Below are positions 2,209 through 27,379 of a DNA stretch of 27,379 nucleotides, piece after piece. Both the position numbers and the translations under genes were made by a program. This DNA is from a virus, in the IMG/VR virus record IMGVR_UViG_3300025881_000067, positions 1 through 27,379 of that record; one strand, written 5' to 3'. Positions within the stretch are counted from its first letter, which is position 1; the number at the start of each line of letters is the position of its first letter. The notes under the pieces were generated by a model, which saw only the letters and a program-made list of their open reading frames with translations, did not search any database and was not told the origin of the DNA.

Positions 2209-3168
2209 TTAGTCTATCATTACACCATGTACTCTTGCATTATCAATAGTTAGGTTCATTAAACCTGTCATTGGTAATACATAAACATCTTGGTTTACTG
2301 GTCTAGTTACTTCCCCTTTTTCCAAGAAGTCTCCTAAATGTTTTAACTTAATATGTTGAGAATTTAAGAAATACATATGATTAGCAGGACATTCTGGATC
2401 ATAGTAAACATCAGCTCCTTTGTATTGTAATACATCGAAACCTGCGTCAGCTAATTTACTGCTAGCTACTCTTTGGATAGTCTGTAAAGAATCTTCATAA
2501 AATCCAAAGTTTATATCATCAGCAGTTATCAAATCAATCTGTTTACCAGCTTGAGCTTGACATCTTCTGTAAAGGCTATTCATTGCTTTTCGAATAGTTG
2601 TTGCGTCTTTAGTTACTGACTCTACTGAAAAATCATAGATTTTGTTTCTAAAAAAAGCACCTTCTGTCGAAGATCTATCGATACCGCCTACCGTTCCAGA
2701 TGTTGGGTCATCAGCAACTAATAATTGCAAACCGCCAATTTCTTGACCACCTGTTCCAGTGCCATCTGAATAAATAGCAGATCCAAGTGTATTTTTAATT
2801 GAGCTTTCTAAGTTTTTAATTTTCTCCTCCATTAAATTTGCAATTCTCTCTTTACCAGAGTTTTGCTTCATTTCCTTGCCAGACATTGAAATAGTACCAG
2901 TAATGATTTTTTGTTCAAAATCTGCTGCAGTAATGACATCTTGGATAGTAGTGTCAAAAGTATCAAATTCACCCTGAAATTGTACTGTTCCATTTGAAGA
3001 ATAAGTTAGATTTTCTCTAAAAGCTACACCACCAGATTCTTTAATTACATTTCCCTTTTCTTTTAGTCTTATAAATAAAGGGTGAAAATTTTCGATATTG
3101 TCAATAACTTCTTTTCTATAGTTATGTAATGTCGTTGTCAATATCTCCGAAATATTAGGATTAGTCAT
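2209..3168 (-). CDS. Major capsid (coat) protein
   Basis: A 319-residue protein placed right after the scaffold and before the decoration gene. It begins MTNPNISEILTTTLHNYRKE, then has a helical domain with the motif QEIGGLQLLVADDPTSGTVGGIDRS, followed by FFRNKIYDF and a C-terminal part with VYYDPECPANHMYFLN and HLGDF. The 'IGGL..LV.DDPT.GTVGGIDRS' block with a C-terminal 'MYFLN' strand is typical of one class of HK97-fold coat proteins. The length fits a T=7 head. It should be one of the most abundant products; the promoter at 4098-4126 ahead of the scaffold gene would serve both. Confidence in the coat role is high from motif plus order. Confidence 0.88.
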   Translation of the reverse strand: MTNPNISEILTTTLHNYRKEVIDNIENFHPLFIRLKEKGNVIKESGGVAFRENLTYSSNGTVQFQGEFDTFDTTIQDVITAADFEQKIITGTISMSGKEMKQNSGKERIANLMEEKIKNLESSIKNTLGSAIYSDGTGTGGQEIGGLQLLVADDPTSGTVGGIDRSSTEGAFFRNKIYDFSVESVTKDATTIRKAMNSLYRRCQAQAGKQIDLITADDINFGFYEDSLQTIQRVASSKLADAGFDVLQYKGADVYYDPECPANHMYFLNSQHIKLKHLGDFLEKGEVTRPVNQDVYVLPMTGLMNLTIDNARVHGVMID

Positions 3169-3210
3169 TTTTAAAATTTATTAAAATTATTATTAATAAA
3201 TGTTTAAAGA

Positions 3211-4068
3211 TTATGCAAAAAGTTCAGAAATAGCCTTATAGTTTAGCTCTTTAGCGGAAAGGTTTTTATTGCCACTGCCTACGCTAGGAGAATATTTTTT
3301 ATTTTTCTTCACTTTCTCAAGAGCTTCTTTTTGTTTAATCTTCTCTTTTAAAAGTAATTCTTGCCTTTGCTCTCCTTCTAATTCATCATCAAGTAACACT
3401 GCTTTATTATATGCCTTTTCTAAGGTCATTGTGCCGTTTTGATCTGCCTGGAATAACAAAGACATATTCTTTCTAACTCTTTCAAAATAAGGATGTTTTA
3501 AACTTCCATCTTCATTTTGACTTTGTGCAAAGCTTGTTAATTCTTTTTGCACCGTTTGAGCTTGGCTTACCGCCTCCTGTTCCTTTAACTCTTGCAATTG
3601 TCTCTCAACATTTTCAAGTTGTTTTTTTTGCTTTAGCTCTTGCTCTGTTAGATATTCATCTTCATCTTCTGCAACAGGGTTATTTTGCTTCGAGGTTAAC
3701 TCCTCTAATTTTGTTCGCATTTCTGCCAACTCTTTCCTAGTATTCCCGAGTTCAAGACTTCTACGATCAAAATCTACTCTTCTTTTTTTGGTAGCTTCTA
3801 CTGCTTCTTGTCTTAATTCAGGGTCTTTAATTTTTTTGACGAGTTCTTTTTCTTCCTTAGTCCAACCGCTGGTTAATCTAATAAATTTAAGTTCCTCCTC
3901 CGGATCTTCTGATTCTTCGGTTGGTGCGTTTTCTGCATCAACTTCTGTATCATTATTTTCAGTATTGTTTTCTTGAACAGTTTCTTGATTCTCAGTTTCT
4001 TGAGTTTCGGTACTCTCTTCCAGAATTTCAGCTAATGAATCGCTGTTTTTTTCTAATGTATCTGACAT
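3211..4068 (-). CDS. Capsid scaffolding protein
   Basis: A 285-residue protein with no globular look: residues 1-60 are extremely acidic (glutamate, asparagine, threonine; for example TETQETENQETV), the middle is a long charged coiled coil (ELGNTRKELAEMRTKLEELT, QLENVERQLQELKEQEA), and the C-terminus is basic (KEKIKQKEALEKVKKNKK). This acidic-head, coiled-coil, basic-tail design, between portal and coat genes, is the hallmark of tailed-phage scaffolds: the basic C-terminal end binds coat during procapsid assembly and the protein is later expelled. It is the first gene after the late promoter at 4098-4126 and is separated by 42 bases from the coat gene. Confidence 0.88.
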   Translation of the reverse strand: MSDTLEKNSDSLAEILEESTETQETENQETVQENNTENNDTEVDAENAPTEESEDPEEELKFIRLTSGWTKEEKELVKKIKDPELRQEAVEATKKRRVDFDRRSLELGNTRKELAEMRTKLEELTSKQNNPVAEDEDEYLTEQELKQKKQLENVERQLQELKEQEAVSQAQTVQKELTSFAQSQNEDGSLKHPYFERVRKNMSLLFQADQNGTMTLEKAYNKAVLLDDELEGEQRQELLLKEKIKQKEALEKVKKNKKYSPSVGSGNKNLSAKELNYKAISELFA

Positions 4069-7997: not shown

Positions 7998-8232
7998 TCG
8001 CTTTTCTTAATAAACTCTTAACAGATATTAAAATATTATTTTCTGCTTCTTTAATTGTTAGCTTGCTATTATCTGTTGTAATGCACGAATAAATATCATC
8101 GCTCATATTGTTTATGTACGATTTCGGTAGGGTGTAAATTTTTAAATTAAAAACTTTATATTTTTTTAGGTGTGTCTTAAAATCTGATATTTTTAAATTA
8201 TTTATCTTTTTTAATACTTCTAGGTTTTTCAT
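7987..8232 (-). CDS. Hypothetical protein between terminase genes
   Basis: An 81-residue basic protein that I do not recognise: MKNLEVLKKINNLKISDFKT at the start, then KYKVFNLKIYTLPKSYINNM and a helical end (KEAENNILISVKSLLRKANG). It lies between the small and large terminase genes and overlaps the large terminase start by 11 bases, which argues that it is translated. It shows no membrane or metal motif. It could be a packaging accessory or a small regulator. Confidence 0.65.
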   Translation of the reverse strand: MKNLEVLKKINNLKISDFKTHLKKYKVFNLKIYTLPKSYINNMSDDIYSCITTDNSKLTIKEAENNILISVKSLLRKANGV

Positions 8233-8299
8233 ACAGTTTTATTTGTCTCCACCCCGTGGAAGAAGTTGCCTAATCCCTGGTTTATAAGGGTTCAGTTTT
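8233..8299. other. GC-rich gap behind small terminase (candidate packaging site)
   Basis: A short gap that is clearly more GC-rich than its surroundings (for example CCACCCCGTGG, an 11-base hairpin-forming element, and CCCTGGTTTATAAGGG). On the minus strand the small-terminase frame has just stopped, but the +1 frame stays open and reads LNPYKPGIRQLLPRGGDK before stopping. Two readings are possible: a pac/cos-type recognition sequence next to the terminase genes, or the remnant of a longer terminase tail after a frameshift. The sequence does not decide. Confidence 0.3.
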
Positions 8300-8758
8300 T
8301 TAGTTATTTTCTGTTTTTAGATTAAATATTACTGGGATACCATCATCTGATTTAATATTTTGCTCCAGGTCTTGCTTATCAGCCCAAACACAATTGTATC
8401 CGTCCCTTTTAAATCTGTTCTTAGTGTTGTAAACAAACGCGCCATTGTTAAACCCGTCAATCTCTCCAACTGTCCCTCTGCGTCCTCTTTCTTCCCACCA
8501 GACCTGACTTAATATGTTCCCCCTTTTAATTGTGTCTAAAAAATTTATCTCTATTGGTTCAAGATTTGCCTCGTCTGATCTTAATATTCTATAAAAAGTT
8601 TCTCTTGTAATATCCAATAAAGCAATCGCCACTATATCACTACCACCATTTTCATAGCTGTCTAATATCTTCTTTTTTAATTCTTCGTTCCATTTTTGCG
8701 GTATAACTCTAGGTCTTCCTGACTTTTCTTTGTCTTCTTGCTTTTTGTTTACTGCCAT
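8300..8758 (-). CDS. terS: Terminase small subunit
   Basis: A 152-residue protein with an N-terminal DNA-binding region (SGRPRVIPQKWNEELKKKIL then a helix-turn-helix-like stretch SDIVAIALLDITRETFYRIL, about residues 13-60) and a C-terminal part with the very typical TerS motifs NILSQVWWEERGR (the 'WWe..gR' helix) and GFNNGAFVYNTKNRF. Such proteins recognise the packaging site on phage DNA and form a ring that feeds DNA to the large subunit, encoded two genes downstream. It is preceded by a promoter with a 16-base palindrome (8800-8815). Confidence 0.85.
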   Translation of the reverse strand: MAVNKKQEDKEKSGRPRVIPQKWNEELKKKILDSYENGGSDIVAIALLDITRETFYRILRSDEANLEPIEINFLDTIKRGNILSQVWWEERGRRGTVGEIDGFNNGAFVYNTKNRFKRDGYNCVWADKQDLEQNIKSDDGIPVIFNLKTENN

Positions 8759-8787
8759 ATTTAATTAATTAAGATTATTATAATAAC

Positions 8788-8815
8788 ATAATAAGCTAAT
8801 TGACTAAATAGTCAA
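8788..8815 (-). promoter_or_regulatory. Promoter with palindromic operator for terminase genes
   Basis: On the minus strand TTGACT (8815-8810) and TATTAT (8793-8788) are 16 bases apart, 30 bases before the small terminase start. The -35 box is one half of a perfect palindrome, TTGACTATTTAGTCAA (8800-8815), with 7-base arms around TT. A dimeric repressor bound there would cover the -35 box. The regulator is unknown; the Cro/CI-like protein (16733-16972) is one candidate. Confidence 0.6.
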
Positions 8816-8853
8816 GTTATAGGAGAAATGACTTATTAAGTAATTCTTAACAG

Positions 8854-9042
8854 CTATTTATCAAGTAGTAATTTCAAGGTTAAATGCTCCGCGTCACGAA
8901 AAAAAATAAACTGTTCTTTATCTCGTTTTATCCAGTAATTTACCGATGTTTTAATATAGTCTAATTTGTTAGTTAGTCTTTCTTTAGAGTGAGAAGCTTG
9001 AATAATAGATTTATGTAATTCTGAATTTGTGAAATCTGTCAT
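8854..9042 (-). CDS. Small hypothetical protein
   Basis: A 62-residue protein of mixed charge (MTDFTNSELHKSIIQASHSK...) ending TLKLLLDK, predicted mostly helical, with no recognised domain. It has its own strong promoter (9074-9102) and the shared early leader motif (9057-9066) before the ATG, which supports that it is a real, separately expressed early gene. Its function is unknown; small early proteins of this kind often act on host factors. Confidence 0.65.
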   Translation of the reverse strand: MTDFTNSELHKSIIQASHSKERLTNKLDYIKTSVNYWIKRDKEQFIFFRDAEHLTLKLLLDK

Positions 9043-9073
9043 TTTATTTTGATTTGAGTTAATTACAGAATTA

Positions 9074-9102
9074 ATTATAACTAACTCTTTTTAAGATGTC
9101 AA
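9074..9102 (-). promoter_or_regulatory. Early promoter, TTGACA-N17-TATAAT
   Basis: On the minus strand a perfect -35 (TTGACA, 9102-9097) and perfect -10 (TATAAT, 9079-9074) with a 17-base spacer precede the 62-residue gene. The segment after the -10 contains the shared leader GTAATTAACT (9066-9057). It closely resembles the promoters at 9691-9719 and 11160-11187. Confidence 0.85.
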
Positions 9103-9106
9103 CTAT

Positions 9107-9658
9107 TTATTTTAAGTTTTTTAATTCTGGTAATATATAATGATTTACCGAGTACATACAATTATTATTCCAAAGCCTCTGCCAACAATTGTTATTTCTT
9201 GACCATTTAAAGCCGTGTTTTTTCATTATGTCAATTCCTGCCCTTTCTGGCTTATCATCAAAAAAGAATTGCACCCTATCGTTCTCTGCGTTTTGCTCAT
9301 CTGACCTTATCTCGCTTGAGGGGTTATTTTTCTTATCTATTGCTTTTTTTACCTTATCAATAAAATCATACATTTCTTGACTTCTTGCCCTCTCTCTATT
9401 GTTCATTTTTTCCATCCTAGCAACTGGAAAATTAGATGGTCCAGTAATCATTGGAGACATACAATTGCTTTTAGCGTTTAATGAGGCTAGAAATAAGCTC
9501 TCAAACTTTGTAAAGGCTCTTTCATCTGCTCCTAATTCTGTAAATTCTTTATTTATCTCGTCAAAATAGTTGCATGCGCTTACTGCTCTTTTTTTTGGTG
9601 AAAAACTTATAGCATAATAAGCTCTGTAAGCAGTGTCATAGTGTTTATGTTTAGTCAT
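9107..9658 (-). CDS. Mobile-element type protein of unknown function
   Basis: A 183-residue protein. Its first 120 residues contain the block CMSPMITGPSNFPVARMEKM followed by NNRERARSQEMYDF, and its last 50 residues read VQFFFDDKPERAGIDIMKKH then GFKWSRNNNCWQR. From memory, these two blocks recur together in uncharacterised phage and conjugative-element proteins, the second as a small domain with the pattern 'F..KP......lk..GF.Ws.....WqR'. No catalytic motif is evident. It has a dedicated early promoter (9691-9719) and the shared leader, so it is probably made early and alone or with the gene downstream. Confidence 0.7.
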   Translation of the reverse strand: MTKHKHYDTAYRAYYAISFSPKKRAVSACNYFDEINKEFTELGADERAFTKFESLFLASLNAKSNCMSPMITGPSNFPVARMEKMNNRERARSQEMYDFIDKVKKAIDKKNNPSSEIRSDEQNAENDRVQFFFDDKPERAGIDIMKKHGFKWSRNNNCWQRLWNNNCMYSVNHYILPELKNLK

Positions 9659-9690
9659 TTTATTTTTAGTTTGAGTTAATTACAAAACTA

Positions 9691-9719
9691 AGTATAACTA
9701 ACTACTTTTAATATGTCAA
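9691..9719 (-). promoter_or_regulatory. Early promoter, TTGACA-N17-TATACT
   Basis: On the minus strand TTGACA (9719-9714) and TATACT (9696-9691) are 17 bases apart, followed by the shared leader GTAATTAACT (9683-9674) and an A-rich run up to the ATG at 9658. It is nearly the same sequence as the promoter at 9074-9102, so the two are paralogous control modules. Confidence 0.85.
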
Positions 9720-9723
9720 CTAT

Positions 9724-10125
9724 TTATTTTAATTTATACCAATTTTTAAAATTTAAAACTTTTTTCCTTTTTTCCTCCGAGTCATGCACATAATCATAAT
9801 AATCAAATATATCTTCAATATTAGCTACTTTTAGCTCTACAGCTTGCTTTAAGTCTTCCGTTGTTATCCAATACTCTTCATTAATTATCAATGTTTCTCC
9901 TATGTTGTTATGCAACCATTCCCCCGTGATTAATCCCTCGTCACTACCGTCACTTGCTAAAAAATTTGTACCCTCTGCCGCTTCACAATCTAAAAGTTGC
10001 TTGCCGTCATGAAAGCCAAAGATAATATCTTTGTAATCTGATCTTAGCAAGATTTCAACAAGTAGTTCATTAATTGATTTATTATATGCTTTTAGTAAGT
10101 CTTCTGCTTTAGTGTTAATTTTCAT
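9724..10125 (-). CDS. Acidic hypothetical protein
   Basis: A 133-residue acidic protein with no recognised domain. It begins MKINTKAEDLLKAYNKSINE, has a central section DYKDIIFGFHDGKQLLDCEA and ends with an aromatic/acidic stretch (IEDIFDYYDYVHDSEEKRKK). Its strong negative charge and small size would fit a protein that binds a basic or DNA-binding partner (a DNA-mimic type inhibitor is one possibility), but this is speculation. Its start overlaps by one base the stop of the small HTH gene, in a TAATG arrangement, so the two are co-translated. Confidence 0.65.
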   Translation of the reverse strand: MKINTKAEDLLKAYNKSINELLVEILLRSDYKDIIFGFHDGKQLLDCEAAEGTNFLASDGSDEGLITGEWLHNNIGETLIINEEYWITTEDLKQAVELKVANIEDIFDYYDYVHDSEEKRKKVLNFKNWYKLK

Positions 10126-10316
10126 TATTTTTCATTTAATATATTATATATTGCTTGCCTTGAGATTCCTTTCATTTTTGAAATTTTCATTATTGTATAA
10201 TTTTTTTTTAACTCTTTTATCTCATTTCTGTCAATTTCTCTTGGTCTGCCTGCCCTTTTGTCTGATTTTGCTTGTCCTTTTTTAATTTTTTCTGAATGAT
10301 TTTTATATTTTTCCAT
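10125..10316 (-). CDS. Small helix-turn-helix protein
   Basis: A 63-residue basic protein. Residues 20-63 read GRPREIDRNEIKELKKNYTI then MKISKMKGISRQAIYNILNE, a helix-turn-helix of the resolvase C-terminal (Hin-like, HTH_7) type: a GRP minor-groove hook followed by a trihelical unit. No catalytic resolvase domain is present, so it is likely a free-standing DNA-binding regulator. I chose the ATG at 10316; a TTG at 10346 would add ten residues, but those are the antisense of the RNase III fragment and look like chance. It shares a TAATG overlap with the acidic gene downstream. Confidence 0.75.
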   Translation of the reverse strand: MEKYKNHSEKIKKGQAKSDKRAGRPREIDRNEIKELKKNYTIMKISKMKGISRQAIYNILNEK

Positions 10317-10325
10317 TTTTATTTT

Positions 10326-10466
10326 ACCAGAAAGATTATTACTCAATTATGGTCAAAATTAATTGAAGAACATATAACTCCACCCAAAGGTGCAATTTCT
10401 TCTTTGCAAGAATTAACTCAAGCTAAACATAAAACGTTACCAGAATATCAAATTCAAAAAATTGGA
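10326..10466 (+). pseudogene. rnc: Fragment of a host-type RNase III gene (antisense to phage transcript)
   Basis: On the plus strand, opposite to all genes around it, 47 codons stay open and read RKIITQLWSKLIEEHITPPK then SSLQELTQAKHKTLPEYQIQ and KIG. This matches the RNase III segment that joins the nuclease domain to the double-stranded RNA-binding domain; the diagnostic pattern is 'ii..lW..li......k..LQE..Qa....LP.Y.i...g', as in Rickettsia-type and other alphaproteobacterial RNase III. The nuclease core and most of the RNA-binding domain are absent, so no enzyme is made. It overlaps the last codons of the cysteine-rich gene and stops 10 bases short of the HTH start. The match was made from memory of the family and needs a database search. 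Confidence 0.7.
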
Positions 10467-11129
10467 ATTATGTTCGTCAACACATTTATCACAACCTACG
10501 CAATTATAGCAATCAAAACAATCATCGCAATCTATGCAATCTTGGCAATCTTCACAATATACGCACCCTTTACAATCTTCTAATTTTTCGCAATTTTTAC
10601 AATTTTCTGATCTTATACAATCTTGGCAATGCTCGCAACTTGTGCAATCAATGCAATCTTTACAATTATAACAATTAGTGCAATGTTCACAATCTTTACA
10701 ATCTTTACAATCATAACAACCTTGACAATCTTTACAATATACACATTCTTGGCAGTCTTCTGATGTTTGGCATTTTCTGCAATTAGTGCAAAGTGTACAT
10801 CTTATACAATCTTGGCAATCTTCGCAGTTAGAACAATCTTTACAATTATAACAATTAGTGCAATTAGTACAATTTTCACAATATGATAATCTTCTACAAT
10901 ATATGCAATCTTTACAATTATAACAATTAGTGCAATTAGTACAATTAATGCAACGCGTACAATTTATGCAATTTTTACAATCTTTGCAATCAATGCAATT
11001 TATGTTTAAATTTTCATCAACTGAAATTATATCATTATTTAATAAATGCTTTTCTTGGTATGGTGTAAGTTTTTTGCTTTTTAAAAAAGGGTATTTTTTA
11101 ATTAATTGCTCTATTGTTTCAAATTTCAT
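10437..11129 (-). CDS. Protein with cysteine at nearly every third residue
   Basis: A 230-residue protein. Residues 1-43 form an ordinary charged head (MKFETIEQLIKKYPFLKSKK...), and about residues 44-218 are an uninterrupted C-x-x repeat with more than fifty cysteines; typical units are CINC, CTNC, CYNC, CKDC. At only four positions is the periodic cysteine replaced (by L, S, S and L), and the three-residue phase is kept across each. The other positions are mostly Asn/Asp before the cysteine and polar or aromatic residues two before. Such a chain could form a regular solenoid with stacked cysteines or bind many metal ions; neither is shown. It has its own early promoter (11160-11187). Its last ~9 residues come from the antisense of the RNase III fragment. 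Confidence 0.8.
   Translation of the reverse strand: MKFETIEQLIKKYPFLKSKKLTPYQEKHLLNNDIISVDENLNINCIDCKDCKNCINCTRCINCTNCTNCYNCKDCIYCRRLSYCENCTNCTNCYNCKDCSNCEDCQDCIRCTLCTNCRKCQTSEDCQECVYCKDCQGCYDCKDCKDCEHCTNCYNCKDCIDCTSCEHCQDCIRSENCKNCEKLEDCKGCVYCEDCQDCIDCDDCFDCYNCVGCDKCVDEHNSNFLNLIFW
10480..11000 (-). repeat. Internal DNA repeats of the cysteine-rich gene
   Basis: The coding DNA is built of degenerate 9-base units (plus strand TTTACAATC, TTGGCAATC, TTAGTGCAA and the like). Longer near-perfect copies stand 72 bases (24 codons) apart: 10834-10874 and 10906-10946 are identical over 41 bases, and 10654-10684 repeats 31 bases of the same string. This indicates growth by unequal recombination, and the length of the array may differ between related phages. 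Confidence 0.85.
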
Positions 11130-11159
11130 AATTTTTATTTTTAGTTAATTACTTAACTA

Positions 11160-11187
11160 AGTATAAACTACTCTTTTAATATGTCAA
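11160..11187 (-). promoter_or_regulatory. Early promoter, TTGACA-N16-TATACT
   Basis: On the minus strand TTGACA (11187-11182) and TATACT (11165-11160) are 16 bases apart, followed by the shared leader GTAATTAACT (11152-11143) before the cysteine-rich gene. Read-through of this promoter would also transcribe the antisense strand of the RNase III fragment and then the HTH gene. Confidence 0.85.
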
Positions 11188-11195
11188 CTAATTAT

Positions 11196-11594
11196 TTAAA
11201 AAGGTATGTCATCATCTAGTAAATTTTCAGATTGATACCCATTCGCTTTTGCTTCGTTGTGTTTATCTACTGCTTCAAATTTTGCCTGATTAATAACTAC
11301 TTTTATATAATTAATTGTTTTTCCGCTTTGATCCTGAAAATTATCAGCAATTAAGTTTATTTCTGCTTCGAATAGTTGCCCCTTACTATCTAGAATAGCC
11401 CTCTCTGTGTCTCTGTCTATTTGGCTTTTAAATGCTACAAACGGCAATGTCTTTGATATATATATATCATTTTTTTTTGTAGAAATATTTACTTTACCAG
11501 AAATAATTTTTTCACTTTCTCTTATTTCAAAAGTGCTTTTTTCATATTGATTACTTTCTTTATTATATACATTTGCTATTCTTAGTTTTTGCAT
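11196..11594 (-). CDS. Single-stranded DNA-binding protein (SSB-like)
   Basis: A 132-residue protein whose C-terminus is SENLLDDDIPF, the same acidic tip (DDDIPF) used by bacterial SSB to recruit replication and repair proteins. The body is beta-rich with alternating hydrophobic residues (TLPFVAFKSQI, GQLFEAEINLIADNF, INYIKVVINQAKFEAVD), consistent with an OB fold. The final proline-phenylalanine tip strongly supports an SSB role; the fold itself is inferred. It is part of the minus-strand replication block and would coat single strands made during replication and during exonuclease/annealing recombination by the plus-strand genes. Confidence 0.8.
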   Translation of the reverse strand: MQKLRIANVYNKESNQYEKSTFEIRESEKIISGKVNISTKKNDIYISKTLPFVAFKSQIDRDTERAILDSKGQLFEAEINLIADNFQDQSGKTINYIKVVINQAKFEAVDKHNEAKANGYQSENLLDDDIPF

Positions 11595-11622
11595 TGTTTT
11601 TATATTAAGTTTTTAATTTTAT

Positions 11623-11832
11623 TTATTGGTCTTTATCGTTATCTATGAAGATATTTCTACCAGCCTCAAATTGATTAATTTGTCTTATTAGCTCATAAGA
11701 TTCTGATCTTAAAACATTAATCTCAACATCTGTTAATCTTGTCTCTTTAAAATTGGCTAGTGTTGAAGATATTATACTAAAAGATTTAATTATTTTTTTG
11801 TGTTTATCTTTGTAAAATTGTTTTTTGTTCAT
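11623..11832 (-). CDS. Small hypothetical protein
   Basis: A 69-residue basic-to-acidic protein, predicted helical (MNKKQFYKDKHKKIIKSFSI at the start, then DVEINVLRSESYELIRQINQ). No domain is recognised. Its leader (11835-11863) is almost identical to that of the SSB-like gene just downstream (11597-11625), which suggests the two genes share a post-transcriptional control or arose with a duplicated start region. It sits in the replication block. Confidence 0.6.
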   Translation of the reverse strand: MNKKQFYKDKHKKIIKSFSIISSTLANFKETRLTDVEINVLRSESYELIRQINQFEAGRNIFIDNDKDQ

Positions 11833-11875
11833 AATTTTTATATTAAGTTTTTAGTTTTATTTAGTTGTTTTTTAC

Positions 11876-12085
11876 TTAATTAAAAAATGTAGGTTTAAAT
11901 CCAGAATTAAAGAACAACTTTCCAACATCAGCCTTTGTTTCTTCTTTAAGATCGGTAAATTGCCATTCAGCAGTCTTATCTACAAAACTAGAGAGTCCTC
12001 CAAAATTTATATTATCTATTTTTTCAATTTCTTTGTTAAGTTTTCTGACTTGATCGTGTGAAATATTTTTAATTGTTATTTTCAT
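11876..12085 (-). CDS. Small hypothetical protein
   Basis: A 69-residue protein beginning MKITIKNISHDQVRKLNKEI, with the later stretch EWQFTDLKEETKADVGKLFF. The layout (beta strand, helix, strand, helix) looks like a small alpha/beta fold, but I cannot name it. It has its own promoter (12118-12146) and a variant of the shared leader (GTAATTAATC, 12110-12101) before the ATG, so it is likely expressed early. Confidence 0.6.
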   Translation of the reverse strand: MKITIKNISHDQVRKLNKEIEKIDNINFGGLSSFVDKTAEWQFTDLKEETKADVGKLFFNSGFKPTFFN

Positions 12086-12117
12086 TTTTTTTTAGTTTAA
12101 GATTAATTACATCAATA

Positions 12118-12146
12118 ATAGTAGAATTGTTAATTATAAAAATCAA
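12118..12146 (-). promoter_or_regulatory. Early promoter, TTGATT-N17-TACTAT
   Basis: On the minus strand TTGATT (12146-12141) and TACTAT (12123-12118) are 17 bases apart. The -35 box overlaps the stop codon of the upstream gene. A shared-leader variant follows. The boxes are weaker than those of the other early promoters. Confidence 0.6.
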
Positions 12147-12535
12147 GCATAAATATTAAAATATTTCCTTTCTACTGCTAATTTATTATTTTTTATATTT
12201 ATTATATCTCCAATTTCAACTGTTGTTTTATTTATTTTTAATAATTTTTTTCTGCTATCTCCTTGAAAAATATATGATTTTACATCATAGACAGAATTTA
12301 GATATTTCGCTATTTGTGATACATTGTTTTCTGTCATCTTTATTGGTAAAGTGATTGATTTATAATTAACTTTTTTGACTCCGCAACAGTGATCGTGCTT
12401 TGCTTGTTTTATTTGTCCAAGCGTCGTTTTTACTTCTGTTCCACACTCACAACAGCGGAATAAGTACTTATCCACCTTTTCACTTTCCTCCTCTGTTATA
12501 ATTATAAATTTTCTAATTTTTTCTCCTACTTGCAT
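12143..12535 (-). CDS. Hypothetical protein with zinc-finger-like cysteines
   Basis: A 130-residue protein. Residues 1-25 resemble a beta strand leading into RCCECGTEVKTTLGQIKQAK and HDHCCG, giving a CxxC...HxHCC arrangement that could bind one zinc ion. The remainder (LPIKMTENNVSQIAKYLNSV...) is mixed. A similar 'C.CG....t....l..g....C.C' knuckle is common in short phage and homing-endonuclease-like proteins, but no catalytic part is seen here. It lies 3 bases before the gene upstream of it ends, so it is in the replication operon. The function is unknown. Confidence 0.65.
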   Translation of the reverse strand: MQVGEKIRKFIIITEEESEKVDKYLFRCCECGTEVKTTLGQIKQAKHDHCCGVKKVNYKSITLPIKMTENNVSQIAKYLNSVYDVKSYIFQGDSRKKLLKINKTTVEIGDIINIKNNKLAVERKYFNIYA

Positions 12536-12538
12536 AAT

Positions 12539-13039
12539 TTAATTTAATTCTTTTGTCCAATTTTCCAAGGTTACAGACTTTTGCATTTTTAGGTTATTAA
12601 ATGCTTTTTCTATTTGTTTCTTGCTGTATGATCTAAATGTTGCAGCTAATGAGCTAAATAGATAATCTCCATAAATTATATTGAAATATTCATAAATTTC
12701 AGTAATTAATTTTTGCTTTTCGCTTTTAATTAATTCTATTTTTTTTGCATTTTCTTTTGAAATTCTAAATGCTTTCTGATCCTTGCAATACTCAATAAAT
12801 ATTTTTACTTGTGGTATTTTATTATAAAAAGTTTCTTTCCTTATAATCTCTAAAGTTGCTTTTTCAAAATCTTCATTTGTAAAATATTGTAAAAAGTTTT
12901 CAAATAGTATTATTTTACCTTTTAGCAGTTGGTCGCCTTTATCTCCTGAAAATTCTAGTCCTGCATCCAGGCAAATTAATTTTAGTCCTTTTAAATATAT
13001 TTCTTTATCTATCATTTGTTTATAATTCGGGGTTTTCAT
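12539..13039 (-). CDS. Candidate replicative helicase loader / replication accessory
   Basis: A 166-residue helical protein. The segment QYFTNEDFEKATLEIIRKET then FYNKIPQVKIFIEYC follows the pattern seen at the N-terminus of phage helicase loaders and replisome organisers (for example the G40P family): 'yf..edFe.A...ii.....f.kiP.i..i'. The rest is a long lysine-rich helical region (IELIKSEKQKLITEIYEYFN). It is next to a DUF6291-type replication protein and an SSB-like gene, which supports a replication role. The assignment is a pattern resemblance, not a clear motif. It overlaps the YopX gene by 20 bases. Confidence 0.6.
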   Translation of the reverse strand: MKTPNYKQMIDKEIYLKGLKLICLDAGLEFSGDKGDQLLKGKIILFENFLQYFTNEDFEKATLEIIRKETFYNKIPQVKIFIEYCKDQKAFRISKENAKKIELIKSEKQKLITEIYEYFNIIYGDYLFSSLAATFRSYSKKQIEKAFNNLKMQKSVTLENWTKELN

Positions 13040-13397
13040 AAATATTTCCTACAACTTCGCACTCTGACAGTTCAAACGAAGCTACCACAGCGATTGAACT
13101 CTTAACTCCGTCAGATGTTATTACGCTAGGATATGAATTATTATCTTTAGAAAAAAATTTGAATTGTAAATCCTCTTTATCATAACTAACTTCAAGTAAA
13201 TATTCTTGAGTGCAAGCTTTATATTTTAACAAATCACCCTCAAAAATTAAATTATTATTTTTGTCTCGTTTGTCGATACATTGCATTATTACATTATAAT
13301 CTTCTATGCCTCTATGAATATCAAAGTAAGTCATACAACCTTCGGGAGAATTATAACTAGGTTTATCCCAAGCTCTAAATTTAAATCTATCTGCCAT
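13020..13397 (-). CDS. YopX family protein
   Basis: A 125-residue protein with the full YopX (PF09643) pattern: FKFRAWDKPSYN at the start, MTYFDIHRGIEDYNVIMQCI, then DKRDKNNNLIFEGDLLKYKA in the middle and CEVVGNIYENPEL at the end. YopX-type proteins are widespread in phages and their biochemical role is not established. It is placed between the DUF6291-type gene (2-base gap) and the candidate loader (20-base overlap), so it belongs to the replication operon. The family assignment is firm. Confidence 0.9.
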   Translation of the reverse strand: MADRFKFRAWDKPSYNSPEGCMTYFDIHRGIEDYNVIMQCIDKRDKNNNLIFEGDLLKYKACTQEYLLEVSYDKEDLQFKFFSKDNNSYPSVITSDGVKSSIAVVASFELSECEVVGNIYENPEL

Positions 13398-13399
13398 AA

Positions 13400-14029
13400 T
13401 TATTTTAATTTAAGTTGATCTGATTGAATTTCTTTTAATACTCTATCAAAAGAATTCTCAGTTGAATTTGATTCTGTATATTCATCTTTCCAACACTCTT
13501 GAGTAAGCCAAGTTGATGGATATTTCCAATACTGGCTGTCGCTTGACCTATTTTTAATGTAGTTGTTTAATCCTGACATAATATTATCAAAGCTATCTTT
13601 TTTTAATGCTGCCTTTAATTTCTTTTCTACATCACTACGACTTTTCTTTTTTCCATATAAATCATAAAACTGTTCAAACTGTTTATTTATTAATTCTTTA
13701 TTTTCATTATTAATTCTACATTTTACATTATCATTTACATTTACATTAGCTTCTGTTTTGCTTTTGTTTTGCTTCTGTTTTGCTTCTGTTTTGCTTTTTT
13801 TCTTTTCTTTTATACCGTTTAAATATCTTTTTCTGTTAGCTTCTAGTTGGGGCTTTATAAGCGTAAAGATGGCATTAGGTATTCCTTCGAGTTTTACATC
13901 TTTAAAATCTAAAGAATAAGAAGAAATAGCTTTATAAATTTGTAATTGCTGATCTTCTGGAAGATGATTTATAGACTCGTAAAACGATCTATAAAAGATA
14001 AAACTATCTCTAGTATTTTGATTTGTCAT
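13400..14029 (-). CDS. DUF6291-type phage replication protein
   Basis: A 209-residue protein in three parts. Residues 1-70 (DSFIFYRSFYESINHLPEDQ, then GIPNAIFTLIKPQLEANRKR) match the DUF6291 domain found at the N-terminus of phage replication proteins. Residues ~75-98 are a lysine/glutamine/threonine linker (KSKTEAKQKQNKSKTEANVN) coded by an 11-base tandem repeat. Residues ~115-180 (QFEQFYDLYGKKKSRSDVEK ... YWKYPSTWLTQECWKDE) match the C-terminal part of phage replication initiator/organiser proteins, with the 'P.tWL....W.de' ending. It probably recruits the host helicase to the phage origin, with the downstream genes as partners. It overlaps the upstream small gene by 20 bases. Confidence 0.8.
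   Translation of the reverse strand: MTNQNTRDSFIFYRSFYESINHLPEDQQLQIYKAISSYSLDFKDVKLEGIPNAIFTLIKPQLEANRKRYLNGIKEKKKSKTEAKQKQNKSKTEANVNVNDNVKCRINNENKELINKQFEQFYDLYGKKKSRSDVEKKLKAALKKDSFDNIMSGLNNYIKNRSSDSQYWKYPSTWLTQECWKDEYTESNSTENSFDRVLKEIQSDQLKLK
13749..13796 (-). repeat. 11-base tandem repeat in replication gene linker
   Basis: On the plus strand the unit GCTTCTGTTTT occurs four times in a row (13749-13792; the second unit has one T for C) with a degenerate fifth. Eleven is not a multiple of three, so each unit is read in a different frame and loss or gain of one unit would cut off the C-terminal domain of the DUF6291-type protein. Confidence 0.85.
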
Positions 14030-14207
14030 TGTTTATTTTTTCACTTATTAACTTTTCACTTAAATTGTCCTTAAATTTCCAAAGACATTTTTTAAAACCT
14101 TTTTTGTGTTGTTCTTGACAATTCATTGATTCAAGAATTGGCATAATATAACCAATAAGCTTTTGGGCTTCTTCTGTTATTATATTGTCTATATTTGATT
14201 TGTTCAT
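14010..14207 (-). CDS. Small hypothetical protein, first gene of the minus replication operon
   Basis: A 65-residue lysine-rich protein: MNKSNIDNIITEEAQKLIGY, then MPILESMNCQEQHKKGFKKC and LWKFKDNLSEKLISEKI. It is predicted helical and has two cysteines; no family is recognised. It is the first gene after the promoter at 14308-14336 and a ~95-base leader with a hairpin, and overlaps the DUF6291-type gene by 20 bases. Its position suggests an early regulator or replication accessory. Confidence 0.65.
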   Translation of the reverse strand: MNKSNIDNIITEEAQKLIGYIMPILESMNCQEQHKKGFKKCLWKFKDNLSEKLISEKINNDKSKY

Positions 14208-14247
14208 TTTTTTAACTTTGCTTTATTAACTTTTACTTACTATTCGA

Positions 14248-14271
14248 AGAAGAAGAGATTGATCTTCTTCT
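14248..14271 (-). promoter_or_regulatory. Leader hairpin before replication operon
   Basis: A 9-base perfect stem (AGAAGAAGA / TCTTCTTCT) around a 6-base loop lies in the untranslated leader between the promoter at 14308-14336 and the start at 14207. No T run follows, so it is not an obvious terminator; an antitermination site, RNA-stability element or protein-binding hairpin is possible. Confidence 0.5.
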
Positions 14272-14307
14272 CCATCCTTTTAAAATTTGGTACAAAATTT
14301 TAATTTG

Positions 14308-14336
14308 ATTATAAATTATTTATTTTTAAAAGTCAA
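14308..14336 (-). promoter_or_regulatory. Replication operon promoter, TTGACT-N17-TATAAT
   Basis: On the minus strand TTGACT (14336-14331) and TATAAT (14313-14308) are 17 bases apart in the gap after the 107-residue membrane gene. It would drive the genes from 14207 down to about 12143. Confidence 0.8.
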
Positions 14337-14339
14337 ATA

Positions 14340-14663
14340 TTATTCTTTTTCTAATTCTGTTCTTGAGTTAATCGAAGCAGAACTTGGTGAGTTGCTTGGC
14401 GTTTCTATGTCAGATTGTATTGCTGCTAATCGTGAGTTATTTACTGAAATATAAAAATTACACATAACTACACCCAATATCCCCACGCCATTTAATGGCC
14501 ACGCTACCGCACCTGCTACTGCTGAACTTTCTGTAATTTGGTTAGTATCTCTAGCGTAAGAAGCATAACCAAAACCAGAATTAGCCGCAACTACTGAAAA
14601 TATAGCTAAATTTCTTGCTGTAGTTAAATTTGAGTTTGATCTTAAAAGCTGTTCTCTATTCAT
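14340..14663 (-). CDS. Small membrane protein, leftmost gene of divergent pair
   Basis: A 107-residue protein with two hydrophobic segments, about residues 16-36 (ARNLAIFSVVAANSGFGYAS) and 47-72 (AVAGAVAWPLNGVGILGVVM), and polar ends. It has no signal peptidase site. It is not recognised; an early membrane protein of this size and position may act in superinfection exclusion or as a holin-like protein. It is the first minus-strand gene at the divergent region, with a candidate promoter at 14758-14786 and the shared leader GTAATTAACT (14688-14679) before its ATG. Confidence 0.65.
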   Translation of the reverse strand: MNREQLLRSNSNLTTARNLAIFSVVAANSGFGYASYARDTNQITESSAVAGAVAWPLNGVGILGVVMCNFYISVNNSRLAAIQSDIETPSNSPSSASINSRTELEKE

Positions 14664-14695
14664 GATTTTTTTAATTTAAGTTAATTACATAATTG

Positions 14696-14753
14696 TTGTG
14701 GAGGTGGCGTAATTAACCAAACCAAAAAAAGAGATATGAGTTCACCCCCACAA
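14696..14753. promoter_or_regulatory. Inverted repeat in the divergent control region
   Basis: TTGTGGAGGTG (14696-14706) and CACCCCCACAA (14743-14753) are inverted copies with one mismatch, 36 bases apart, and are the only GC-rich parts of the 190-base divergent region. Between them a leader-like string (GTAATTAACC then A-rich, 14709-14730) points to the plus strand, followed by a 24-codon open frame (14736-14810, MSSPPQKKYN...). The repeat may be an operator pair or a leader hairpin in the minus transcript. Confidence 0.5.
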
Positions 14754-14757
14754 AAAA

Positions 14758-14786
14758 AATATAATATATATAAAATTAAATTGCAA
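14758..14786 (-). promoter_or_regulatory. Candidate promoter for the leftward membrane gene
   Basis: On the minus strand TTGCAA (14786-14781) and TATATT (14763-14758) are 17 bases apart, directly behind the plus-strand promoter at 14794-14822. The boxes are weaker than those of the other promoters, and the surrounding sequence is almost pure AT, so chance matches are possible. Confidence 0.4.
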
Positions 14787-14793
14787 GAAAAGA

Positions 14794-14822
14794 TTGACTT
14801 TTATAATTAGTGATTATATAAT
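14794..14822 (+). promoter_or_regulatory. Early rightward promoter, copy 1
   Basis: TTGACT (14794-14799) and TATAAT (14817-14822) are 17 bases apart. The promoter lies inside a 35-base segment repeated exactly at about 15018-15052. The spacer contains ATAATTAGTGATTAT, an imperfect palindrome with 5-base arms that could be an operator. It is followed by the shared leader GTAATTAACT (14830-14839) and the 53-residue gene. Confidence 0.85.
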
Positions 14823-14853
14823 ATATTTAGTAATTAACTAAATTAACAAAAAA

Positions 14854-15015
14854 ATGTCAAACAAAGTAATAAAAAAAATTCTCAAAAGAGAAGATAAATT
14901 TTTAGATTATTATATTTATAAAGTCGATATTCATGGAGAATATTATTTAACAAAATTAGCAAATCTTAATCCGTTTAAAACTTTTTTAGTAAAAATATTA
15001 GTTAAATTTGTATAA
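14854..15015 (+). CDS. Small basic hypothetical protein
   Basis: A 53-residue frame reading MSNKVIKKILKREDKFLDYY ... NPFKTFLVKILVKFV. It is lysine-rich with a hydrophobic C-terminal helix. It is too short to name, but it is preceded by a perfect early promoter and the shared leader motif, and followed 8 bases later by the second promoter copy, so it is a complete, separately expressed early unit. Its function is unknown; a regulator or host-takeover peptide is possible. Confidence 0.6.
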   Translation: MSNKVIKKILKREDKFLDYYIYKVDIHGEYYLTKLANLNPFKTFLVKILVKFV

Positions 15016-15023
15016 TAAAAAGA

Positions 15024-15052
15024 TTGACTTTTATAATTAGTGATTATATAAT
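15024..15052 (+). promoter_or_regulatory. Early rightward promoter, copy 2
   Basis: TTGACT (15024-15029) and TATAAT (15047-15052) are 17 bases apart, identical over 35 bases to copy 1 located 230 bases upstream. It is followed by GTAATTAACC (15060-15069) and the 63-residue gene that opens the recombination operon. Confidence 0.85.
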
Positions 15053-15084
15053 TGATTTTGTAATTAACCTAAACTAAAAAAATC

Positions 15085-15276
15085 ATGGCGTTAAACAAAT
15101 ATACTAAATCGCAAGAAAAAGAATTAAACAAATTAATTCATGAAATGTTTCTTGATAATACTGATATAGAAAATGTTACTAAAAAAATTAGTGATATAAT
15201 ACAACAATCTAGTAATGACGCAAAAGAACATTATCGCAAAGCAGAAATAGAATTAAACAATTTAATTAATAAATAA
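15085..15276 (+). CDS. Small hypothetical protein opening the recombination operon
   Basis: A 63-residue helical protein (MALNKYTKSQEKELNKLIHE ... DAKEHYRKAEIELNNLINK) with a regular coiled-coil look. No family is recognised. It has its own promoter (15024-15052) and ends one base before the annealing-protein start, so the two are coupled. It may be a small partner of the recombinase or a regulator. Confidence 0.65.
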   Translation: MALNKYTKSQEKELNKLIHEMFLDNTDIENVTKKISDIIQQSSNDAKEHYRKAEIELNNLINK

Positions 15277-15277
15277 A

Positions 15278-15961
15278 ATGACAGAAGTTAAATTAAAAGG
15301 AGACTCTATATTTTCTAGACTATCCTCCGTAGATATTAAATCAAAAATAAAAACAAAGCAAAAAACATTAAGTTATTTATCTTGGTCTGATGCTTGGAGG
15401 GAAGTTTGCAAGATATATCCTAATGCAAGATATGAGATTATTAAAAATGATAACGGATTACCTTTTTTTAAAAGTGAGGAGGGGTATATGGTCTTTACCA
15501 AAATAACCATTCAAGATATTACTCATGAAATGTGGATGATGGTTACTGATGGAGCTAATAAAACTATGAAAAGTGAGAGATATTCTTATGAAGTAAAAGA
15601 TTGGGATCAGTCAAAGAAACAAAATAAAGATGTTTTTAAAACTAAATTTGTTGAAGTGGCAACGATGTTTGATATTAATACAGCAATTATGAGGTGCTTG
15701 ACTAAGAATATAGCTGTTTTTGGTTTAGGATTATCATTGTATAATAAAGATGATATTCAAGATGATTGGGCAACAATCTCCATTGAAGAATATAAGAAAT
15801 TAAAAAAACTATTAGATGAATCTGGGGCAGAAGAGTCTAAATTTTTAGAACATTTTAAGGCTGATTCTTTAGAAGAATTTAAGTCAAGTGACTTTGAAAA
15901 AGCTATGTCTTTATTAAAAGATAAAATTAAAATTAAAAATAATAATAATGGAAATAATTAA
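15278..15961 (+). CDS. Single-strand annealing protein, SAK3 / DUF1071 type
   Basis: A 227-residue protein matching the DUF1071 (SAK3) family of phage annealing recombinases: KQKTLSYLSWSDAWREVCKI at residues ~28-47, then YPNARYEIIKNDNGLPFFKS, and a helical part with FDINTAIMRCLTKNIAVFGL. Such proteins, related in fold to Rad52/Redbeta-type annealers, pair complementary single strands. It is followed, with a 14-base overlap, by a lambda-exonuclease-like gene, the classical partner that produces the single strands, and an SSB-like protein is coded elsewhere in the window. The C-terminal ~60 residues are a charged tail (KAMSLLKDKIKIKNNNNG). Confidence 0.85.
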   Translation: MTEVKLKGDSIFSRLSSVDIKSKIKTKQKTLSYLSWSDAWREVCKIYPNARYEIIKNDNGLPFFKSEEGYMVFTKITIQDITHEMWMMVTDGANKTMKSERYSYEVKDWDQSKKQNKDVFKTKFVEVATMFDINTAIMRCLTKNIAVFGLGLSLYNKDDIQDDWATISIEEYKKLKKLLDESGAEESKFLEHFKADSLEEFKSSDFEKAMSLLKDKIKIKNNNNGNN

Positions 15962-17816: not shown

Positions 17817-18443
17817 ATGAATATACCATTTAAAGTAAAACTACTAACAGATACAGCAAAAGCACCCGCTAAGGAGAATCAGGGAGATTTATGGGACATA
17901 TATGCTGATGATTTTAGTTTTAATCATTTAAAAGATAGAAATTTTACTATGTATAAATCGGCAGATGGCAAGTATGTGGATTTATGTCCTATGGGACGAG
18001 TCCTTGTGAAAACAGGAATTAGCCTTGAGTTGCCTAAGCAATATCAAGTTAGTGTCACTAATACATCAAAACTATGTGATAAGTGGTTTTTAGTTAGTGT
18101 CACTAATACATCAAAACTATGTGATAAGTGGTTTTTTAAAGAGCCTAAATCTGATATTGGATTCTTCAACTTAAAATCTTATGCAGTAGCTGATTTACGC
18201 CCACGCTCTGGACTCGCTTTAAAACATGGAATTACAGTTTTAAACTCACCTGCAACAATAGATAATTTATATAGAAAAGAAATAGGAGTTATTCTATATA
18301 ATGCAGGACACGAACCTTACACTATTACAAAAGGGGATAAAATCGCTCAAATGCTAATAAGACCACTATATCCAAGTAAAATGGAAATAGTGAAAAGTAT
18401 TGAGGACACTCAAAGGGGTGGTTATGGCTCAACAGGTAAATAA
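17817..18443 (+). CDS. dut: dUTPase with an internal tandem duplication
   Basis: A 208-residue trimeric-type dUTPase (dUTP to dUMP), which keeps uracil out of phage DNA. All motifs are visible: motif 1 DIYADD (27-32), motif 2 RPRSGL (128-133), motif 3 SPATIDNLYRKEIG (144-157; alanine replaces the usual glycine in 'PGTID', the catalytic Asp149 and Tyr152 are kept), motif 4 GDKIAQML (173-180) and motif 5 RGGYGSTG (200-207). Between motifs 1 and 2 there are about 40 extra residues, including a perfect 15-residue repeat (VSVTNTSKLCDKWF at 78 and again at 93). The family is usually ~150 residues. Whether the repeat leaves the enzyme active is unknown. Confidence 0.92.
   Translation: MNIPFKVKLLTDTAKAPAKENQGDLWDIYADDFSFNHLKDRNFTMYKSADGKYVDLCPMGRVLVKTGISLELPKQYQVSVTNTSKLCDKWFLVSVTNTSKLCDKWFFKEPKSDIGFFNLKSYAVADLRPRSGLALKHGITVLNSPATIDNLYRKEIGVILYNAGHEPYTITKGDKIAQMLIRPLYPSKMEIVKSIEDTQRGGYGSTGK
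18047..18136 (+). repeat. 45-base perfect tandem repeat inside the dUTPase gene
   Basis: 18047-18091 and 18092-18136 are identical over all 45 bases and adjoin directly. The length is a multiple of three, so the frame is kept. No sequence difference between the copies means the duplication is very recent, or a read-assembly artefact. Confidence 0.95.
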
Positions 18444-24930: not shown

Positions 24931-25158
24931 TTAAGAAGTAAGTTCATTTAAAAAATCTGCAAATTCTTGCTTTTCTTCTACAGTTGCGTTTTCTATGTAA
25001 AACTCGTCGCTTTGAATATCTTGTATCATATTAATTAAGTTTTCTTTTTTTCGCTTTATTTCTTCTGGCAAAGTTTCTTTATAATCTTTTTTTGCTAAAT
25101 TAAAGTTAGTTAATTTGTTTATTAGTTCGTTTTTATTTGTTAAATTTTTTAGTGTCAT
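24931..25158 (-). CDS. Small hypothetical protein after tail fibre
   Basis: A 75-residue protein from ATG at 25158 (MTLKNLTNKNELINKLTNFN...), chosen because it lies one base after the tail-fibre stop; the earlier ATG at 25194 would overlap the fibre by 35 bases. It is charged and helical, rich in glutamate and lysine (EEIKRKKENLINMIQDIQSD, then EEKQEFADFLNELTS). No family is recognised. As a gene placed right behind the fibre, a fibre-assembly chaperone is possible. Confidence 0.65.
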   Translation of the reverse strand: MTLKNLTNKNELINKLTNFNLAKKDYKETLPEEIKRKKENLINMIQDIQSDEFYIENATVEEKQEFADFLNELTS

Positions 25159-25159
25159 T

Positions 25160-27379
25160 TTATTTTTTATTTTTATATTCAATACCATACTCATTAAAAT
25201 CTTTCATAGCCGTTTCGTCTTTACGATCACCAAAGATTAAAATATTATAAATTCCTTTTTTATCAGTTACTATTTTTACTTTTTTTCCATTCTTAGTAAC
25301 CTCTCCCCAAGCCCTTCCAAAATGCTTAACAGGATTTACCCATACTAAACTATCTTTATTTAAATATTTAAAATAATCTGGTAAGTCAATATAATTTTTA
25401 CCTTTTTTGCATTTTATTTGATATTTATATATATTTCCTCCTGCACTTGGAGTTTCTACAAAGTAATGTCTTAGTCGGTGAGTTTCTTTCTTTTTAGGAT
25501 CAGGGTGTGCAATATCAAACGATCCTGAACCTTTGGATATTGAGCCAGTAACTTGCAAGTTTCCATAAATGTAAGTAGTTTTATTGCCGTAGCCTTGGTT
25601 GTTCATCCGTATCATTAAGTTATCGTTGTTCCAACCCTGCTCGCAGGTAATATCAATAGCTCCGTGCACAGTGTTATAATTGGGGCTGCTGTTATAAGCA
25701 TATTGATAATATCGTATCATACTATAATCCCCGCCTCTAAACCCTGTTCTGCGTGCAATTAAGTTGCCATTAAAAGTAATTCCTTCAAGTTGCGATTGAC
25801 CAGATGCGTCAATGTATCTATTTGTGTTTTGGTTATCTACAAACCTATTTCCCCTAATGTCATTCGCTGTATAAATAAGTTTATTTCCGTAACATCTCAT
25901 ATAGGTTGAATCTTCCATATTCCAACCGCCCCCATGATTATCCCAATATATACCGCTATTTCCATTGACTCTGAACCAATCGCCCATAACCTTAAAACCG
26001 TTGCTTGCCTCAACTCTACCATTGTCAGTTACCAATAATCCTGAATTACCAGCGTCATTATATAGTTTTAATCCGTTGCCATCTACTGCTCTAATTTGTG
26101 AGCTAGCAATATACTTGCTAGCATTTTGTGTCCAGTCATTTTTTACATTAATATTTTGAACGGCTGATAAGCCAACATTACCTTTCGTAATATTCATCGC
26201 TGTTTTTAGTGCTGCGACAGTTACATCTTCTACATCTCCTGAATTTGCTGATAATCTGCCCTTTACCGTGCTTGTTGAGATATGAGCTAGTTTAGAGTTA
26301 GTTACTGACTCATCTGCTATTGATGAACTAGAATTATTATCTACATAAGTTTTAATTGCCTTGGCACTAGCTAAAGTATCATCATTTGAGCTTACTGTTG
26401 TTAAATCTGTATCTATAGTTATATTTTCTATAGATCCTGTTCCTGCTGTCGTTCTACCTTTGACCGTTCCAGTTGAAGTGTGAGCTAATTTTGAATCAGT
26501 TACAGCCTGATCCGTTATTGTTAAAGCTGTTGAGCCTGTGACATCGCCTGTGTGTGTTGAATTAGTTATTTTTAAATTATTAACTCCTACATTAAATAAA
26601 ACTGAATCTAGGTCTATTGATTGATTTAAACTAATATTATTTAATTTTGTGTTGTTTGTAGCTGTTAATAATTTGTAAGTTGCTGTTTGGGATATATCAT
26701 CAAGAGTCAGCCCCCTAGCAACCGCTTGATTGCTTGAATTTCCTATAAAGACATTACCTAGATTTAAATTTGGAACATCGTTTGTTCTTCCTGCACCACC
26801 CACCTTAATTGATCCATTAGACCCATGCACTCGCTGCACCTTACCAATATTCTGTATTTTTGCTGACTCGCCAGCAGGTTTAATATTTGTTAAAGCTCCA
26901 GAAGTTGAAATATATAAAATATCACCTAGAGTAAAACTACTTGTGTTTAATCCTGATAAAGTTCCAAAAGTAACCACGCTAACATTACTATTATTGGAAG
27001 CTGTGTCTTTTGCCAATCCAAAGCATGGCATTTTATTTGAATCGTCCGCATCTGCTATTCCTACAATAGGCTTATTGCCTGAAACATCAAAAGTTGATAT
27101 ATATAATGGGTCACCTTTCGTTATATCTTCTCCTGCCTTCGCTTGAAATTCTGTCGCTCCTCGTAAATCTCCTATTAAAGTGTTAGCTTCAATTTCTCCG
27201 TTAATATTTATATTACCTGTGCCACTAATATCATTAGAGTTTAAATCTAAATTACCTCCCAGTTGCGGGGTTATATCTTCTATTACATCTGCTAATTTTG
27301 TATCTTGCAATAATTTACCTTGATTTGCTGATAGTGGTTTGTCTATGTTAGTTGAAACTAAATCATTAATTACATCAGT
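25160..27379 (-). CDS. Tail fibre / receptor-binding protein (partial, 5' end off window)
   Basis: The frame is open to the right edge (at least 739 codons); a TTG at 27310 is not the start, since the frame continues upstream with LVSTNIDKPLSANQGKLLQ, a motif of tail-fibre repeats. The visible protein has beta-rich repeats, including two related units (SKLAHTSTGTVKGRTTAGTG and SKLAHISTSTVKGRLSANSG), then a glycine/asparagine/tyrosine-rich shaft (GNSGIYWDNHGGGWNMEDST). The last ~110 residues (GSFDIAHPDPKKKETHRLRH, YFKYLNKDSLVWVNPVKHFG, then RDKETAMKDF-like end) match a C-terminal domain common in marine-phage tail proteins. It likely binds the host surface. Confidence 0.85.
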   Translation of the reverse strand, partial: TDVINDLVSTNIDKPLSANQGKLLQDTKLADVIEDITPQLGGNLDLNSNDISGTGNININGEIEANTLIGDLRGATEFQAKAGEDITKGDPLYISTFDVSGNKPIVGIADADDSNKMPCFGLAKDTASNNSNVSVVTFGTLSGLNTSSFTLGDILYISTSGALTNIKPAGESAKIQNIGKVQRVHGSNGSIKVGGAGRTNDVPNLNLGNVFIGNSSNQAVARGLTLDDISQTATYKLLTATNNTKLNNISLNQSIDLDSVLFNVGVNNLKITNSTHTGDVTGSTALTITDQAVTDSKLAHTSTGTVKGRTTAGTGSIENITIDTDLTTVSSNDDTLASAKAIKTYVDNNSSSSIADESVTNSKLAHISTSTVKGRLSANSGDVEDVTVAALKTAMNITKGNVGLSAVQNINVKNDWTQNASKYIASSQIRAVDGNGLKLYNDAGNSGLLVTDNGRVEASNGFKVMGDWFRVNGNSGIYWDNHGGGWNMEDSTYMRCYGNKLIYTANDIRGNRFVDNQNTNRYIDASGQSQLEGITFNGNLIARRTGFRGGDYSMIRYYQYAYNSSPNYNTVHGAIDITCEQGWNNDNLMIRMNNQGYGNKTTYIYGNLQVTGSISKGSGSFDIAHPDPKKKETHRLRHYFVETPSAGGNIYKYQIKCKKGKNYIDLPDYFKYLNKDSLVWVNPVKHFGRAWGEVTKNGKKVKIVTDKKGIYNILIFGDRKDETAMKDFNEYGIEYKNKK

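Follow-up and report, generated by a model that had tools for sequence, protein, structure and literature searches.

Operon and promoters around the insert

The window analysed here is the whole of a marine phage DNA sequence of 27,379 nucleotides (IMG/VR record IMGVR_UViG_3300025881_000067, positions 1 to 27,379), in which a 139-nt segment of host DNA (10327-10465) lies inside a phage operon on the minus strand. The segment takes in the final codons of a Cys-rich repeat ORF (10437-11129, −) and is followed downstream by a resolvase-type HTH gene (10125-10316, −; Pfam HTH_7, E 2.9e-5) and by the next gene of the same operon, a 133-aa ORF (9724-10125, −) with no family match in Pfam or NCBIfam. 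The first-pass annotation had described only minus-strand genes around this position and a promoter at 11160-11187, and both observations held: the neighbours of the segment are minus-strand genes, and a σ70-like promoter, TTGACA-16-TATACT (11160-11187, −), preserving 11 of the 12 consensus positions, precedes them and is followed by an operator-like GTAATTAACT element. This promoter-plus-GTAATTAACT arrangement recurs at 9102-9074 and 9719-9691 (−) and at 14794-14822 and 15024-15052 (+). Repeated promoters of the form TTGAC[AT]-16/17-TATA[AC]T, each followed by a GTAATTAAC element, were observed at 9038-9118, 9654-9735 and 11131-11200 (−) and at 14780-14855 and 15010-15085 (+), and the GTAATTAAC element looks like the common operator of a phage repressor. 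A single terminator-like site was found in the region 8000-15300, placed outside this operon and not between the promoter and the insert.

For ~170 residues of the Cys-rich ORF roughly one residue in three is a cysteine, and the underlying DNA consists of degenerate 9-nt repeats. Its product had no match in Pfam or NCBIfam and is possibly a metal-binding or disulphide-stacked solenoid. Homologous Cys-rich ORFs were observed in the related phage contigs L007, L008 and L009. A protein composed of HALQYVKEQTPEICLEAVKQNG repeats is encoded at L009 6324-6782, and its copy number differs between L008 and L009, a fast-changing repeat gene at this operon position. As to the 3′ end of this ORF as an insertion hotspot, a scan with the Cys-rich N-terminus returned only the contigs already known and one distant one. 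A likeness between the Cys-rich genes and host DNA (G001:C41) was discarded as a simple-repeat, wrong-frame similarity.

Identity and source of the captured segment

The DNA comparison revealed that positions 10324-10465 of the window are identical over 142 of 142 nt, with zero mismatches, to the rnc gene of the metagenome-assembled genome (MAG) "Rickettsiales bacterium C-137" (L004). These 142 nt comprise the 139-nt insert, placed in the rnc sense on the plus strand, and three nucleotides (TTA) of microhomology with the phage flank. The matching host segment (L004 2999-3140) is internal to rnc (2602-3273), covering codons ~133-180 of an intact gene that encodes a 223-aa RNase III; in L004 this gene has an opposite-strand gene upstream and, on its other side, what we take from the translations to be a phosphomannomutase-like gene. 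A second Rickettsiales species carries an rnc 79% identical to the 142 nt, and among 49 relatives of the C-137 MAG, 44 of which have an rnc gene, a substantial match to the 142 nt was found only in the source and in this second species.

The first-pass annotation had recognised in this region, within two bases of the limits given here, 47 open plus-strand codons resembling the linker of RNase III, and had proposed a profile search and a comparison with Rickettsiales genomes, both of which bore the assignment out. Frame 10326-10466 (+) has 47 codons without a stop, and the NCBIfam model TIGR02191 (ribonuclease III) recognises its peptide at E = 1.8e-5, aligning along profile positions 130-175 of 219; the peptide has no match in Pfam, nor in the PDB by phmmer. 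Residues 2-48 of the query are 100% identical to residues 134-180 of the C-137 RNase III, and a genome scan with the peptide returned two loci, each the rnc of a Rickettsiales MAG (L004, 100%; L005, 81% amino acid identity). The captured codons run from the last part of the nuclease domain through the linker into the beginning of the dsRNA-binding domain, and the region of the catalytic E-R-x-E-F-L-G-D motif falls outside them; the TIGR02191 score of 24.4 bits is far below the curated cut-off of 166 for the full protein. Judged from its sequence, the fragment is thus RNase III by descent and not by function, since the catalytic motif and a full domain are absent and the score lies so far under the family cut-off. 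It is an internal part of a bacterial rnc but differs from such a gene in representing only about one fifth of it, in lacking the catalytic motif, a complete domain and a promoter or ribosome site of its own, and in being reversed relative to phage transcription. A coding role for the plus-strand frame was considered and rejected: its only start (10296) is within the complement of the HTH gene, its C-terminal portion reads the opposite strand of the Cys-rich repeats, and it has neither a ribosome site nor a convincing plus-strand promoter.

Independently of the rnc fragment, the C-137 lineage is a good host candidate on sequence grounds, because the end of a tail gene and a dUTPase gene are also common to both genomes. 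The C-137 genome (1.098 Mb) matches the window at 86% over 447 nt at the end of a tail-like gene (25131-25574), and the dUTPase genes are 72-80% identical. This 86% DNA identity links the tail-like protein end with the terminal part of a fibre-like gene of the Rickettsiales MAG (window 25131-25574 and L094 1531-1971), a similarity that suggests phage-host exchange or a prophage remnant. The dUTPase gene of the window (17817-18443, +) contains an in-frame tandem duplication of about 45 nt at 18030-18130, with VSVTNTSKLCDKWF occurring twice in a variable middle part. The rnc piece is the only near-identical host piece within the window, and a comparison of 93 related viral contigs with the host genome yielded no second one except tRNA-Gln at 93%; the host MAG is incomplete, and further captured pieces could therefore be missed. 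These tRNA-Gln genes (L051 5770-5842 and L056 11371-11443; MAG counterpart G001:C18) belong to phages more distant in the group.

Filled and empty sites, junctions and age

Phage relatives were gathered from IMG/VR by means of their TerL sequences, and a scan for the empty junction identified exactly four contigs, L007, L008, L009 and L102, in which the flanks are joined directly. The TerL proteins of L007, L008 and L009 are 97-98% identical to that of the window, and at the site these three contigs read ...CCATTTTTATTTTA directly followed by AATTATATTC..., versus ...CCATTTTTATTTTA, the 139 nt and AATTATGTTC... in the window. L102, a still closer relative (93-97% over long stretches), is likewise empty at the site, and its flanking letters are those of the window. 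Searching for the filled junction brought up L002, L003 and a further contig with the left junction pattern, L191, which was rejected as an unrelated chance match. L002 contains the same insert with identical ends; over 5,136 nt it shows six SNPs relative to the window, two of them about 160-185 nt from the insert and none inside it. L003, which is 100% identical to the window, likewise carries the insert. The segment is therefore carried by two SNP-distinct genotypes and is not a single-virion accident.

All of these sequences are metagenomic, assembled contigs, which raises the question of an assembly chimera. This explanation is scarcely credible, since identical junctions occur in separate assemblies with SNP differences in the flanks, and three nucleotides of shared sequence, present at the left junction alone, would be too short for an assembler overlap. 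A chance resemblance deserves equally little credit, given that a 142-nt match between the window and a genome of 1.1 Mb would be expected by chance about 1e-65 times.

The insertion is clean, with no target duplication and no nucleotide lost at the site. TTA is common to host and phage at the left junction and no nucleotide is shared at the right one, a pattern that would be the signature of illegitimate joining and not of homologous or site-specific recombination. In this respect the locus resembles the morons and captured host genes that phages gain by illegitimate recombination, with which it shares non-homologous junctions, presence and absence among relatives and an identifiable source host: a plausible host has a near-identical donor locus, relatives show the site empty, and neither junction has long homology. 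It differs in that the captured piece is a short internal fragment and not a gene, in that it lies antisense, and in that it was joined bluntly without loss.

The first-pass annotation had offered, as one possibility, a region of attachment or homology with host rnc, through which the phage would recombine into the host chromosome. The 142 bp of perfect homology and the annealing and exonuclease proteins encoded by the phage could be read in this way; however, four close relatives do without the segment, so that the site is not conserved, and integration through an internal gene piece would split rnc, which is intact in the MAG. Moreover, no integrase was recognised in the Pfam, NCBIfam and PHROGs families searched (for PHROGs, the 20 larger ORFs), in agreement with the earlier remark that none was visible and that a classical attP was less likely. 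An attachment function is accordingly very improbable.

Another possibility is that the insert acts through its effect on the neighbouring genes, giving the Cys-rich protein a different C-terminus and separating translation of the HTH gene from that of the Cys-rich gene. In fact, the Cys-rich ORF acquires a new tail, ending in ...DEHNSNFLNLIFW (...EHNSNFLNLIFW) in the window versus ...EHNLK* or ...EYNLK* in the relatives (L102 reads on to EHNLK* at the site and the Cys-rich ORFs of the others end in EYNLK*), and the HTH ATG, placed 2 nt after the Cys-rich stop codon in the relatives, is shifted to about 120 nt after it, across antisense rnc. Against this, there is no sign of selection on either change, and the HTH sequence is intact and 97-100% identical among close relatives. 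Such a structural role is improbable, if somewhat less so than attachment.

The age of the event can be bracketed by comparing the insert with its surroundings. The window and the empty-site relatives have diverged by ~6-14% in the flanking phage DNA, and the insert differs from host rnc at 0 of 142 positions; the insertion therefore took place long after these phages separated. The perfect preservation of the insert is uninformative about selection, because only ~0.2 SNPs are expected within it from the six SNPs observed in 5 kb between the two filled genotypes.

Probable passenger fragment or possible antisense RNA

The most probable explanation, and one that we hold with reasonable though not high confidence, is that a piece of host rnc was captured very recently by illegitimate joining and has so far been a passenger. 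The first-pass annotation had listed a relic of recent gene capture among its readings, and capture itself was demonstrated by the identified source genome and by the empty site in four relatives. In an infected cell, a 139-142 bp piece of the host chromosome would have joined a break or replication gap in the phage DNA by illegitimate recombination, and the Sak-like annealing protein and RecE-like exonuclease that the phage encodes might have helped the capture. The piece would then have settled bluntly between the last Cys-rich codons and the HTH gene, in antisense orientation. It constitutes no gene and would probably be a passenger, so far neither lost nor mutated. The insert is inside a phage operon, with a near-consensus promoter upstream and no terminator recognised between the two; transcripts of the operon should therefore include 142 nt perfectly antisense to the mRNA of host RNase III.

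This expected transcript raises the alternative of a functional antisense RNA against host rnc. The operon transcript, or a piece processed from it, would pair with the rnc mRNA over 142 nt, RNase III would cleave the duplex, and the fall in RNase III during infection would protect phage dsRNA or alter mRNA processing. The complementarity to rnc mRNA is perfect, with a predicted duplex energy of -232 kcal/mol, and no terminator-like site intervenes after the near-consensus promoter. In E. coli, asRNA-mRNA duplexes are primary targets of RNase III (PMC9600491), and the OOP RNA of phage lambda drives cII mRNA decay through RNase III (PMC12197685). The insert, if transcribed, would resemble OOP as a long perfect antisense whose duplex is an RNase III substrate; OOP, in contrast, targets a phage mRNA, and the putative target here would be the host's rnc mRNA. 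On the other side, the target is the middle of the gene and not the translation start, the insert has no special structure (fold z-score -0.17), and the pairing would cut the phage's own operon mRNA too.

Furthermore, there was only one insertion event, and no other phage rnc fragment was found. IMG/VR peptide scans with the fragment, the host protein and an 11-member RNase III alignment found no other rnc pieces in phages; the alignment scan used two peptide patterns only, with correspondingly limited reach, and its two hits look full length or nearly so. By tblastn against 50,697 phage genomes, 10 of 12 matches cover at least 80% of the query, and the other two, which are partial, come from records 1.4-2 kb long. 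A known structured RNA was discounted, as the window gave no Rfam match and no tRNA. The literature searched, which covers the field in part, contained no direct precedent for a phage making antisense RNA from a piece of a host gene. A selected antisense role is unlikely, yet it is the most serious of the alternatives. Its sharpest form, a phage weapon of host sequence in which the 142-nt antisense turns host RNase III on its own mRNA, giving a self-limiting knock-down in infection, is slightly less likely again.

Two observations weigh against a mere passenger: an antisense orientation in a phage operon, directed at an enzyme relevant to phage RNA, is what a selected antisense RNA would look like, and the insert is present in two SNP-distinct genotypes. 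The passenger is nevertheless favoured over all functional readings together, because phage mRNA would also be cut, the target is mid-gene, a single insertion event is involved and no other rnc fragment was found in phages.

Capture of host DNA is a known kind of event; what is unusual here is that the captured piece is a non-coding internal gene fragment, antisense and expected to be expressed, with its donor, filled and empty states at hand. The locus records a phage taking up host DNA, seen close to the event itself, and the junction chemistry can be read directly because donor, filled site and empty site are all identified. It also suggests a phage-host pair for an uncultured Rickettsiales. 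Should the antisense prove active, taking up a random stretch of host gene in reverse within an expressed operon would represent a very simple route by which phages could arrive at host-targeting RNAs. With RNase III as the target this idea is unusually testable, since the enzyme executing the silencing would be the enzyme silenced. If the antisense transcript is plentiful, RNase III would be led to cut both its own message and the phage's own mRNA.
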